Source of the DNA: an alpha proteobacterium AAP81b
GTDB taxonomy: Bacteria > Pseudomonadota > Alphaproteobacteria > Sphingomonadales > Sphingomonadaceae
Direction of reading: 5' to 3'
NCBI GenBank assembly: GCA_001295935.1
Contig: LJHX01000032.1
Span: 1-40,868, forward strand
DNA length: 40,868 nt
Shown here: piece by piece, positions 1-40,868 of the stretch
How positions within the stretch are numbered: the stretch's first letter is position 1
Layout of the letters: the number at the start of each line of letters is the position of its first letter
Made by a program: the position numbers and the translations under genes
The notes under the pieces: model-generated
The model's input: the letters and a program-made list of their open reading frames with translations, nothing else
The model's database searches: none
Told to the model about the DNA's origin: nothing

Positions 1-112
1 CCCTCCCGCTCGCGGGAGGGGTCGGGGGTGGGAAGGGTTTCGGTTTCGGCGGTGGTCTCGGTGAGGGCGGGCTCATTCCCTCCCCCAGCCCCTCCCGCGA
101 GCGGGAGGGGAG
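1..112. repeat. Palindromic repeat inside bchB, translated in frame
   Basis: Two inverted arms (1-36 and 74-112), each carrying its own small palindrome CCCTCCCGC/GCGGGAGGG, surround a variable centre. About 3 nt of the outer arm lie outside the window. Read in the bchB frame it encodes [12 protein letters not shown], a variable centre, then [13 protein letters not shown] second copy sits in sufS at 15147-15258. The insertion falls in the linker between the BchB catalytic domain and its expected C-terminal domain, where extra residues should be tolerated. Confidence 0.88.
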
Positions 113-9323: not shown

Positions 9324-9814
9324 GCCGCACCGATGTGGCGATGAAGGCCGGGCGCTGGCTGCTGCCGGCGACAGTAGCGGCAATCGTCACCAGCTTCATT
9401 GCCATCATCGGCGCGACGATCACCGACATCGGCCCCTGGTACCAGGGGCTCGCCAAGCCAAGCTGGGCGCCGCCCGACATGCTCTACGGCCCGGCGTGGA
9501 CACTGATCTTCGGCCTCGCGGCGATTTCGGCGACGACGGCGTGGATGGCGGCGCCCAATCGCGCCGCCGCCGAGACCATCCTTGGCCTCTTCGCGCTCAA
9601 CGGCACGCTCAACCTGTTGTGGAGCTTCCTGTTCTTCCGCCTGCACCGCCCCGACCTCGCCGCGATCGAGGTCTGGCTGTTCTGGGCGTCGATCGCCGCG
9701 CTGATCATCGTGCTGCGGCGCTATTCGCGCACCGCGGCACTGTTGCTGCTGCCCTATCTCGTCTGGGTCGGCTTTGCAGCGATGCTCAACCAGGCCGTCG
9801 TCGCGCTCAATTAG
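9320..9814 (+). CDS. tspO: TspO/MBR-family tryptophan-rich sensory protein
   Basis: TspO proteins are outer-membrane-associated porphyrin/isoprenoid-binding proteins with five helices. In Rhodobacter, TspO (CrtK) tunes photosynthesis gene expression with oxygen. The 164-residue protein shows the family motifs WYQGLAKPSWAPPDMLYGPA and LNLLWSFLFFRLHRP. The GTG at 9320 is chosen because it overlaps the bchP stop (GTGA); an ATG lies 7 codons further on. Its TAG stop is formed by the left TA and first G of the repeat element that begins here. Its position at the end of the bchG-bchP unit fits a role in tetrapyrrole control. Confidence 0.93.
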   Translation: MSRTDVAMKAGRWLLPATVAAIVTSFIAIIGATITDIGPWYQGLAKPSWAPPDMLYGPAWTLIFGLAAISATTAWMAAPNRAAAETILGLFALNGTLNLLWSFLFFRLHRPDLAAIEVWLFWASIAALIIVLRRYSRTAALLLLPYLVWVGFAAMLNQAVVALN

Positions 9815-10082
9815 GGTCAGGACCTGTTAAATCCATGCCCCGTCATTGCCCGTACAAGGCAAATGGCTAGGCGCGGGACCGCGGGCGGGGCGTTGCCCCC
9901 CGCCAAGGGACCGCAACGACGCCATTTGCCTTGCACGGGCAACCCGAAGGGCGGCCCGGAACGGCCCGGCACAGCGCTCGCGGCGCTTGGGCGGTAGCGC
10001 CGCTACCGCCGCTGCGCTTGCTCACTCGTGCCGGGCCGCTCCGGGCCGTGCCGGGGCATGGATTTAACAGGTCCTGACCCTA
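9812..10082. mobile_element. MITE-like palindromic element with TA duplication
   Basis: A 267-bp element (9814-10080) is flanked by TA on both sides (9812-9813 and 10081-10082). Its ends are perfect inverted repeats of about 30 nt, beginning GGGTCAGGACCTGTTAAATC. A second nested pair, CCCGTACAAGGCAAATGG and the complement of CCATTTGCCTTGCACGGG, differs at one base. Third arms (GGCCCGGCAC/GTGCCGGGCC) lie further in. There is no transposase. TA target duplication and short terminal repeats fit a non-autonomous derivative of an IS630/Tc1-mariner-type element, but that assignment is an inference. Confidence 0.85.
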
Positions 10083-14403: not shown

Positions 14404-15131
14404 GCGCGCTTCCCACCCGCCGCGACGAGGCCTGGCGCTACAGCGACCTCGCCGCCGCCGCCAGCGTCTGGCCGGTGCCGGCCGCCGAGACGGTCACCGT
14501 CGCCGCCGGCGAAAGCCTGGCGCGGACGCTGATCCTCGACGCCCCCGACGACGCCATCGTCATCCACGATTATGCGATCACCGTCGCAGCCGGGGCGAGC
14601 CTCGACTTCCGCATCCTCAACGCCGGCGGCCGCTATGGCCGGGTGGCGCTCGATGTCACCCTCCACGCCGGCGCGCGCTTCGATCTCGGCGGCGTCATCA
14701 TCGGCCGCGGCGCCACCAATCGCGAGATCGTCACCACCGTCCGCCACGCCGGGCCGGGCGCCGTCAGCCGCCAGGTGGTGCGCTGCGTCGCCGGCGACAC
14801 CGCGACGACGACCTATCTCGGAAAGGTCGCGGTGGCGCGCGAGGGCCAGCAGACCGATGCGGCGCAGTCGTTCAAGGCATTGCTGCTCGATCGCGGCGCT
14901 ACCGCCAACGCCAAGCCCGAGCTCGAAATCTTCGCCGATGATGTGAAGTGCGCCCATGGCGCGACGGTCGGCGAGCTCGACGCCAATGCGTTGTTCTACC
15001 TCGAAAGCCGCGGCGTGCCGCCGGCGGCGGCGCGGGCGCTGCTGACGCGGGCGTTCCTGTCGGATGCCTTCGAAGGCCTCGCTGACGACGCGCGCGACGC
15101 GCTGGAAGCCCGGCTGGAGGCGCTGCTGTGA
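14400..15131 (+). CDS. sufD: Fe-S assembly protein SufD, short form
   Basis: SufD partners SufB in the SufBCD scaffold complex and is needed for iron acquisition. At 243 residues it is far shorter than the ~420-residue enterobacterial protein and lacks most of the N-terminal part. It keeps the beta-helix core and the conserved end DDVKCAHGATVGELDANALF and YLESRGV, including the Cys and His positions implicated in cluster formation. The GTG start at 14400 overlaps the sufC stop (GTGA). The stop overlaps the sufS GTG in the same way. Confidence 0.94.
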   Translation: MSALPTRRDEAWRYSDLAAAASVWPVPAAETVTVAAGESLARTLILDAPDDAIVIHDYAITVAAGASLDFRILNAGGRYGRVALDVTLHAGARFDLGGVIIGRGATNREIVTTVRHAGPGAVSRQVVRCVAGDTATTTYLGKVAVAREGQQTDAAQSFKALLLDRGATANAKPELEIFADDVKCAHGATVGELDANALFYLESRGVPPAAARALLTRAFLSDAFEGLADDARDALEARLEALL

Positions 15132-16444
15132 GCGACACCCTTACTTCTCCCCTCCCGCTTGCGGGAGGGGTCGGGGGAGGGAATGCCCTCGCCGCCAACA
15201 CGGATTTTGCCGGGAAGGGACTTCCCTCCCCCAGCCCCTCCAGCAAGCGGGAGGGGAGCAAGGGTGACTTCCCCGGCCTCGCCGGCGATTGGGCCTATCT
15301 CGACACCGCCGCCACCGCGCAGAAGCCGCAGGCCGTCATAGACGCGATCGCCCGCGCCTATGGGCCGGACTATGCCACCGTTCACCGCGGCGTCTACGAA
15401 CGCTCGGCGACGATGACCTTGCGCTTCGAGGAAGCCCGCGCCCGCGTCGCTGCCTTCATCGGTGCCGCGTCGCCCTACGAGATCGTCTTCACCCGCGGCG
15501 CCACCGAAGGCATCAACCTCGTCGCGCAGAGCTGGGGGCAGCGGCTGCAGCCCGGCGACCGCATCCTGCTCTCGGCGCTCGAACATCACAGCAACATCGT
15601 CCCCTGGCAGCTGCTCCGCGACCGCACCGGCATCGAGATCGACGTCGCGCCGCTGACCGACGACGGCCGCATCGACGAGGCCGCGCTCGTCGCGATGATC
15701 GGCCCGCGCACCCGGCTGGTGGCAATCGCCCATGTCTCGAACGTGCTGGGCAGCGTCGTCGATATCGCCACCATCGCCGCCGCGGCGCACGCCCAGGGGG
15801 CGTTGCTGCTCGTCGACGGCTGCCAGGCGGCACCGCGCCTCGCCCTCGACATGCAGGCGCTCGGCGCCGATTTCTATGTCTTCTCGGGCCACAAGCTCTA
15901 TGGCCCGACCGGCATCGGCGTGCTCTGGGGCCGTGCCGAGCTGCTCGCCTCGATGCCGCCGTGGCAGGGCGGCGGCGCGATGATCGAGACGGTCAGCTTC
16001 TTGTCCACCACCTATGCCCCGCCGCCGCAGCGCTTCGAGGCCGGCACGCCGCATATCGCCGGCGCCATCGGCCTTGCCGCGGCGATCGACTATGTCGAGG
16101 GCATCGGCCTCGCCGCCATCCATGCCCATGAAACGACCCTCGTCGCCGCGGCGCGCGAGGCACTCGGGCGCATCAATTCGGTGCGGCTGTTCGGCCCGGC
16201 CGACTCGGCCGGCATCCTCAGCTTCGCCATCGAGGGGGTGCATCCCCATGATATCGGCACCATATTGGATGAAAGCGGCGTCGCCATTCGCGCCGGGCAT
16301 CATTGCGCCCAGCCGCTGATGGCGGTGCTCGGCGTGCCGGCGACGGCGCGGGCGAGCTTCGGCATTTATAACGACCTGTCGGATGTCGAGCGCCTTGCCG
16401 CCGGCATCGCCCGCGTCACACGCATTTTCGGGGTGGAAGCATGA
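15128..16444 (+). CDS. sufS: Cysteine desulfurase SufS with an in-frame palindromic insertion
   Basis: SufS takes sulfur from cysteine with PLP and passes it to the scaffold. The 438 residues include His153 (LEHHSN), the PLP lysine Lys256 (FSGHKLYGPTG) and the catalytic Cys393 (RAGHHCAQP). The N-terminus is odd. Residues about 7-44 are encoded by a palindromic repeat that places [12 protein letters not shown] and LPSPSPSSKREG before the normal beginning DFPGLAGDWAYLDTAATAQKP split here across residue 47 onward. All catalytic residues are intact, so the enzyme should work. Its GTG start overlaps sufD, which argues against starting translation after the insertion. Confidence 0.95.
   Translation: MSDTLTSPLPLAGGVGGGNALAANTDFAGKGLPSPSPSSKREGSKGDFPGLAGDWAYLDTAATAQKPQAVIDAIARAYGPDYATVHRGVYERSATMTLRFEEARARVAAFIGAASPYEIVFTRGATEGINLVAQSWGQRLQPGDRILLSALEHHSNIVPWQLLRDRTGIEIDVAPLTDDGRIDEAALVAMIGPRTRLVAIAHVSNVLGSVVDIATIAAAAHAQGALLLVDGCQAAPRLALDMQALGADFYVFSGHKLYGPTGIGVLWGRAELLASMPPWQGGGAMIETVSFLSTTYAPPPQRFEAGTPHIAGAIGLAAAIDYVEGIGLAAIHAHETTLVAAAREALGRINSVRLFGPADSAGILSFAIEGVHPHDIGTILDESGVAIRAGHHCAQPLMAVLGVPATARASFGIYNDLSDVERLAAGIARVTRIFGVEA
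15147..15258. repeat. Palindromic repeat inside sufS, translated in frame
   Basis: The arms 15147-15182 and 15219-15258 are inverted copies of each other. Each contains its own small palindrome (CCCTCCCGCTTGCGGGAGGG on the left; the right has one changed base). It matches the bchB copy at 1-112 in both arms, while the centre differs. It supplies SufS residues about 7-44. The antisense strand also reads PLPLAGG-type peptide, as expected from the symmetry. Confidence 0.9.
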
Positions 16445-18898: not shown

Positions 18899-18936
18899 AC
18901 CAAGTCCCATTAACGATAACCGACTCAAGAAGAATA

Positions 18937-19055
18937 GCCTCCGGCGGCAAGGAGCTGAGCCCCTGGACCCACTTTCCTTAAGTTGTTGCTTTCGCAGCAT
19001 GAGGGCGGCGCCAATAAAGGTGGGTCAAGGGGCTCAGCTCCTTGCCGCCGGAGGC
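18937..19055. repeat. Intergenic inverted repeat with 36-bp arms
   Basis: The left arm 18937-18972 (GCCTCCGGCGGCAAGGAGCT...) and right arm 19020-19055 are complementary at 35 of 36 positions around a 47-nt centre. The RNA could fold into a very long hairpin. There is no T-run, so a simple terminator role is not evident. Family relation to 18797-18898 is clear from the shared arm sequence. Confidence 0.85.
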
Positions 19056-19072
19056 CATACTTCCTTCGCTCC

Positions 19073-19262
19073 TAGAGCGGCTTCCAACCAACTTGAATCA
19101 CCGTCATCGCCCTGCGGGCGCCCGCTTCGCGGCGGGGCGCTTTTGCGCCGCGGCAGCGTCGCTCATCGGTTACGATGCTGAAGCATCGCGCCCTCCTCGC
19201 TCCTCACCGCGACCCAGTATCGCTGCCGTGCCGATGATCCAACTTGATCGGAAACCGCTCTA
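19073..19262. repeat. TAGAGCGG-type repeat element, complete copy
   Basis: A 190-bp element whose ends are imperfect inverted repeats (TAGAGCGGCTTCC left; complement of TAGAGCGGTTTCC right), continuing with partly matching CAACTTGAATCA-like sequence. Inside are hairpins near 19110-19140 and CGATGC-TGAA-GCATCG near 19172. The right end supplies the TAG stop of sixA on the minus strand. A partial second copy starts at 40811. It looks like a non-autonomous mobile or REP-like sequence. Confidence 0.75.
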
Positions 19263-40810: not shown

Positions 40811-40868
40811 TAGAGCGGCTTTCACGGTTGTTGAATCGCCGTCATCGCCCTTCGGGCGACCGCTTCGC
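40811..40868. repeat. TAGAGCGG-type repeat element, cut by the window edge
   Basis: TAGAGCGGCTTTC at 40811 begins 58 nt that closely match the start of the complete element at 19073, including TTGAATC, CCGTCATCGCCCT, CGGGCG and CCGCTTCGC. The rest lies beyond the window. It begins 8 nt after the preceding gene. Confidence 0.75.

Follow-up and report, generated by a model that had tools for sequence, protein, structure and literature searches.

The window, meaning the whole 40,868-nt stretch analyzed here, corresponds to contig C134, one of the 207 contigs of this genome, and starts within a repeat. On the minus strand, bchB occupies positions 3-1454 (ATG at 1452-1454), giving 484 residues up to the contig end. 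An open frame at 1457-2833, also on the minus strand, adjoins it; we read this frame as bchN from its position and length. A palindromic element covers positions 1-112 in the bchB orientation (minus strand). Three of its nucleotides are lost at the contig end, and together with contig C110 it measures ~115 nt. Its anatomy is that of two inverted GC-rich arms (~34 nt) flanking a centre of ~40 nt that is unlike the centres of other copies. The arm read first in bchB lies at 76-112 (inverted- and direct-repeat matches), the arm read second at 1-34 (inverted-repeat match), and the centre, 45 nt long in this copy, at 33-77, none of the three being assigned to a strand; positions 1-34 and 76-109 are 91% complementary over 34 nt. 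A preliminary description of this DNA had claimed that arms and centre all stay open in the bchB frame. Translation bears this out: no stop interrupts both arms and the 45-nt centre up to the window edge.

The arms belong to a repeat family that is spread through the genome. Its unit is a pair of inverted arms, CTCCCCTCCCGCNNGCGGGAGGGGYYGGGGGWGGG and its reverse complement, mostly ~71 nt apart around an unrelated centre. A genome-wide arm search, which the preliminary description had suggested, returned 69 half-elements at three or fewer mismatches (0 in the reversed control), some of them in genes and in frame, and 103 palindromes were found at two or fewer mismatches (1 in the reversed control). 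Both bchB arms fit the pattern with 0 mismatches. Among the matches listed we count 67 sites, a set that may miss palindromes without an inner arm on late contigs, that includes both pieces of the bchB copy (C134 and C110) and in which the site on C75 (3 mismatches) may be chance. Sixteen of the 67 lie at contig ends, and some may therefore be fragments of the same copy. Single arms are common, and in one subtype the arm is longer and includes another small palindrome. The arms are uniform (72 arms, 89% alike on average over 29 nt), and they are spaced 68-74 nt apart in 9 of the 13 pairs in which both are clean. In these 13 pairs, a small sample, the left arm matches the right arm of its element no better than shuffled arms match each other. 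Among 28 centres extracted from the genome (27-85 nt long, 18 of them 36-45; the coaBC centre still includes part of an arm), none is shared above chance, the best pair score, 24, falling within the range of maxima (18-26) obtained from 40 shuffled sets; the bchB centre resembles none of the other 27 above chance.

The window holds further repeats. Two 41-nt inverted repeats at 9812-9852 and 10042-10082, which begin TAGGGTCAGGACC, are 93% complementary and 189 nt apart; the pair looks like a small IS or MITE. A 47-nt inverted repeat (18929-18975 and 19017-19063, 91% complementary, 41 nt between arms) is a palindrome different from the bchB element and sits just before a 58-nt repeat at 19073-19130, whose 83% identical partner at 40811-40868 is the other contig end. 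C134 thus has repeats at both ends, and we read both ends as repeat breaks.

Does bchB continue beyond the break? The insert had been placed between the catalytic core and an expected C-terminal domain. Searching the same genome with PF08369 (PCP_red), we found a match at C110:38-172 and a weaker one in a gene that matches BchZ; a BchB search of the genome gave one match at E 1e-60. The last 30 nt of C134, read on the minus strand, equal the first 30 nt of C110, and the joined frame runs through PCP_red (7.7e-21) to a stop directly after YHAR. A bchH-like frame, read by eye, comes after PCP_red on C110. Among the contig ends examined, C12 (28 nt) and C90 (27 nt) also overlap C134. Because they do, and because the 30-nt overlap is repeat DNA, we argue the join from gene content and not from overlap alone: among the overlapping contigs, only C110 supplies the missing domain and the bchH-like frame. 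Given the join, with this short overlap of repeat DNA and the gene content as its basis, bchB would run through the repeat into its C-terminal domain, the insert would lie where the preliminary description put it, and no stop or frameshift, which we looked for just past the window edge, follows.

A mis-assembly, with the contig ending in a repeat and the real bchB either intact without the element or joined elsewhere, would suit the 16 sites at contig ends and a join that falls inside the repeat. We nevertheless consider it very improbable. C134 itself contains the core-side arm and the entire centre, both in frame, and the other arm, at the start of C110, shares the frame of PCP_red. Moreover, the copies in sufS, uvrA and coaBC each lie within single contigs, and so do arms found at the corresponding bchB linker of other species, among them Sandarakinorhabdus sp. 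AAP62 (L140).

The preliminary description had also noted the peptide signature of the bchB copy in SufS, in the same frame, and we confirmed the sufS copy in frame. sufS (15128-16444, plus strand, GTG start at 15128) contains this second copy in its N-terminus, near the start, at 15147-15258 (plus strand, 112 nt, by repeat match and translation), and the sufS-frame reading of it includes PSPSPSSKREGS. By eye, no in-frame ATG, GTG or TTG lies between the copy and the conserved SufS start. Hence, the sufS copy must be translated too.

How many copies are translated? Codon-score frame calls at the 67 sites were too noisy in this GC-rich DNA, and our census rests on family matches and start codons. 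We chose 41 frames crossing a site and scanned 40 with Pfam. Twenty-nine matched a family, the 11 without a match were left out and the two-copy uvrA was added, which gave 31 copy-frame pairs. Domain bounds were set by hand for uvrA (borne out, 48-1023), for glyS (a guess, and not counted clear) and for the dapF start. Conserved sequence lies on both sides of the copy in 5 of the 31 pairs: uvrA, coaBC (between its two domains), dnaX (in the linker preceding the C-terminal domain), ligD (between the ligase and polymerase parts) and sucB (between the lipoyl and E3-binding domains). The copy precedes the conserved part, with no later start codon, in 6 pairs. Two of these were counted clear, the N-terminus of ligD and a DUF885 gene whose copy lies just past a signal-peptide-like start; we excluded a periplasmic binding protein, astB and a PDH E2 (contig ends or unsure starts) and a match to 'NAD-GH', which we take to be a doubtful family. 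In 4 pairs the copy lies after the conserved part: the one at the C-terminus of uvrA was counted clear, and those in glyS, an EgtB-like gene (at a contig end) and a uroporphyrinogen methyltransferase are probably translated at the C-terminal side. A start codon lies between copy and domain in 16 pairs, and nothing demands that those copies be translated. Clear in-frame translated sites number at least 10 of the 67 (bchB, sufS, two in uvrA, coaBC, dnaX, two in ligD, sucB and the DUF885 gene), a lower bound because the remaining sites are unclassified. The two ligD pieces sit on two contigs and may or may not be one gene. Copies lie in genes and outside them, many outside, by a count that is not a full census.

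Some of these frames contain other unusual stretches. Between the 3'-phosphoesterase and ligase parts of the ligD frame on C163 lies a second repeat-like peptide, NDVTPANAGAH...GPRVRGGDE, in the same frame, and a GPRVRGGD-like stretch resembling it occurs near the end of another frame (L026); the two are possibly another protein-coding palindrome family. In glyS (C47), which has an arm near its C-terminus, the part that follows residue 170 is a poor fit to the GlyS family (the match is split in 3) and is perhaps another insert.

Neither arm contains a stop codon in any of its three frames, yet the frames are not used evenly. The left arms of clear copies read LPSRLREG (4) or PLPLAGG (5), and none of the 9 reads PPACGRGRG, an absence with a chance of 0.026 if frames were equal. 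This third reading is also absent from ~10 copies in relatives (by eye, and not independent), and it does occur in frames upstream of start codons. With arms that are stop-free in all three frames, the bias hints at selection against the Cys/Arg-rich reading.

We then compared the bchB linker across orthologues. From 116 sequences (this one, 35 from genome searches and 80 from named genomes), we removed 7 duplicates and 2 without a readable C-terminus (L154 and L163) and kept 107. In 8 of the 107, the linker contains an arm within 4 edits, the others having one at 7-8 edits or none; 99 show no clear arm. The preliminary description had allowed that close relatives might all share the segment as an ancestral linker. 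In the alignment, close relatives have other linkers here, most without repeat homology. Arm reading frames differ among the orthologues: PLPLAGG here, another reading in AAP62. The solved BchB chains 9buo, 8vqi and 3aek align across the linker. Core and C-terminal domain are separated by 68 residues here. In 19 genus members that lack the element the distance is 46-67 residues, with a median of 54; G006, one of the 19, reaches 67 with no arm at all, and in the arm-bearing G013 the distance is 53. Since the native linker is hypervariable, the net gain in bchB is only ~14 residues; the figure of at least 37 added residues given earlier is the length of the repeat.

Perhaps, then, this is an ordinary ancestral bchB linker that looks repetitive by accident? 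The linker is indeed hypervariable and Ala/Pro-rich in the aligned orthologues. However, both arms match the genome-wide pattern perfectly, and the element-free G017 shares the bchB flanking peptide without the arms; an ancestral linker is hardly credible. On a quick bchB tree of 61 rows, which excludes duplicates and most sequences from beyond the family, the arm label changes 7 times, at least 4 of these being forced by well-supported branches, with gains and losses indistinguishable, and it clusters like shuffled labels (125 of 500 as low). With at least 4 forced changes on the tree, the same bchB linker seems to have been hit repeatedly. In one of the two sequences set aside, the bchB of Sphingomonas sp. 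PAMC 26605 (L154), the frame stops soon after an arm-like APLPQAGGEIG, and the C-terminal domain is lost or out of frame; this bchB may be broken by an insert, or the assembly may be at fault.

Relatives of uvrA, coaBC and sufS were taken from searches of 60 genomes each, and the counts that follow are among the matches listed. The uvrA stretch between two conserved blocks is 47 residues long here and 10-17 residues in 16 element-free genus members; in the nearest protein, that of G013 (95-96% identical), it is 15. G018 and G011 have arms of their own at the same place, a single one in G011. Outside the genus, the stretch is 29-51 residues in 11 genomes, most without clear arms, so a long linker there needs no element; two uvrA sequences from outside the genus (L219 and L221) look repeat-like by eye. 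The coaBC linker is 62 residues here against 22-32 in 19 element-free genus members; that of G023 is 48 residues, with arms. Arms or remnants in sufS were seen by eye in G013 and G018 as well. The absence of the element from uvrA and coaBC of genus members points to insertion as the origin of both copies, as judged from these alignments. The coaBC linker of a further genome (G033) contains VRAEPVEALPSS...STSSGRTGVSG, which resembles an in-frame copy of still another repeat family.

The element is confined largely to one family. Of 118 genomes, this one among them, 42 contain half-elements. All 42 belong to the family of the window, which the named relatives suggest is Sphingomonadaceae; the 47 genomes from the order's other families contain 0. 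Per genome, the genus ranges from 0 to 104 half-elements (49 in G013, 104 in G015), with three genus members showing 0; G018 and G020 are likewise arm-rich. A class survey allowing 2 mismatches found them in 3 of 289 genomes (own included), all of this family, a fourth genome of the family having none. A plasmid collection of 72,556 records yielded 17 matches, 8 from Sphingomonas, 6 from Sphingobium and 1 each from Sphingopyxis, Novosphingobium and Qipengyuania. We take Qipengyuania to belong to a neighbouring family, following NCBI; its match means that the NCBI family limit is not strict.

The hairpin itself might be what is kept: it could tune bchB/bchH expression, protect mRNA or bind a protein, with translation a by-product. 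In the bchB mRNA sense the element RNA is predicted to fold very stably (-75.4 kcal/mol, z = -7.3, 0 of 200 shuffles as low), the arms are alike where the centres are not, and the 16 copies with a later start codon can sit in 5' leaders. A function of this kind is nonetheless improbable, given the 99 bchB orthologues with no clear arm, the copies in unrelated genes and the three genus members without half-elements. Nor does any Rfam family reach its gathering score in the window, a result on which we also rejected a known RNA family for the element. We conclude that the element is likely a small, non-autonomous, hairpin-forming mobile repeat of one alphaproteobacterial family, among the genomes sampled, that is tolerated and translated in linkers.

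Which known repeats does it resemble? A literature search that included the element's own DNA and peptide letters returned no recognised description, subscription journals being mostly outside its scope. The preliminary description likened the element to Rickettsia palindromic elements. PMC2229807 describes these as 105-146 bp long, occurring both intergenically and as in-frame fusions within conserved protein genes, with a long stem-loop fold and a proposed neutral or slightly harmful effect; they are said to encode a conserved peptide (PMC10969869). The likeness holds for a palindromic element (~115 nt in bchB, 112 nt in sufS) that is genome-wide, in frame in genes and variable between lineages. 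It is qualified by the many copies outside genes, and the present element belongs to another lineage, is conserved in its arms only, uses several reading frames and has no conserved peptide. Given the GC-rich arms, sequence homology is unlikely, and we treat the element as an analogue, inferring kinship neither way.

REPINs offer a second comparison. One group is described with a 71-bp distance and an inverted pair of short palindromes around a less conserved spacer (PMC3116915), and PMC2817692 describes inter-REP segments without homology and defines the REP head as GT(A/G)G. Our element likewise has an inverted GC-rich pair that forms a hairpin at similarly regular spacing. Unlike REPs, it has no GT(A/G)G head directly before the palindrome (by eye, both strands), GTGG occurring a few bases after the palindrome in variants with T; unlike REPINs, it is not accompanied in this genome by a RAYT (Y1 transposase); and unlike REPs, extragenic by name, at least the ten sites above are translated. 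The Caulobacter CIR is also an alphaproteobacterial repeat with stem-loops at both sides, but PMC2229807 reports multiple stops in all six frames and describes it as not found in genes, whereas the arms here are open in all frames. The MITE-like ERIC and 107-bp Correia/NEMIS repeats are reported as fused in frame inside genes (PMC2229807); compared by description alone, they share in-frame fusion and differ in hosts. The element combines the habit of Rickettsia palindromic elements with the anatomy of REPINs, and lacks both the REP head and a RAYT.

If the element is a non-autonomous mobile repeat, it would move by means of a putative enzyme. A copy landing in a gene would survive only at harmless places, such as inter-domain linkers and termini, and with the frame kept, which is easy given arms that are stop-free in every frame. 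In bchB, the element fills the linker between core and C-terminal domain and is read as a flexible Pro/Gly/Arg/Glu stretch, and the peptide would be present in the mature protein. Such inserts would presumably be neutral selfish DNA. We considered a RAYT as the mover and rejected it: at E 0.01, Y1_Tnp (PF01797) has 0 matches in this genome, and among 15 other genus genomes only G009 has one, with none in G013 or G015 despite their 49 and 104 half-elements. A RAYT might have been lost after the element had spread.

Unshared centres, together with unmatched arms within one element, are not predicted by a simple unit-copying transposon. The mobile unit might instead be a single arm (~36 nt), a second, inverted arm making the pair and the centre being trapped host DNA. 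Lone arms do exist, for example in uvrA of G011 and as a lone right arm in sucB here, and the centres and arms behave as such a unit would have them. We find it doubtful all the same, because the spacing of pairs is tight and because the centres did not match native linkers. When 12 centres or linker remains were permuted against element-free linkers, none of the 12 tests reached p 0.05; native linker as the source of the centres, an idea prompted by resemblances in bchB and in uvrA of G018 (EGAT), is therefore not supported. By eye, the coaBC centre is 13-14 residues where relatives have ~4-5. We also put forward, as a speculation that is itself unlikely, that the arms spread without the centre, each insertion gaining a fresh centre of ~40 nt at a near-fixed arm distance without a RAYT; such a centre could be host DNA caught between the arms or could be newly made. 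If true, repeats would here move in a hitherto unknown way, and essential enzymes would acquire new in-frame linker peptides from them, the linkers of bchB, uvrA and coaBC being hit repeatedly.

For annotators, peptides like PLPLAGGxGGG or PSPSRKREGS can be repeat DNA rather than domains. Rickettsia and Wolbachia are host-bound bacteria with reduced genomes. In-frame repeats in conserved proteins are, as PMC2229807 presents them, known above all from the former and reported in the latter. Here, a sphingomonad that has photosynthesis genes and a genome of 3.45 Mb shows the same in-frame habit, with uvrA, dnaX, coaBC and bchB among the genes affected. Many element-free relatives are available for comparison, which makes the neutrality of the inserts and the nature of their mover testable.
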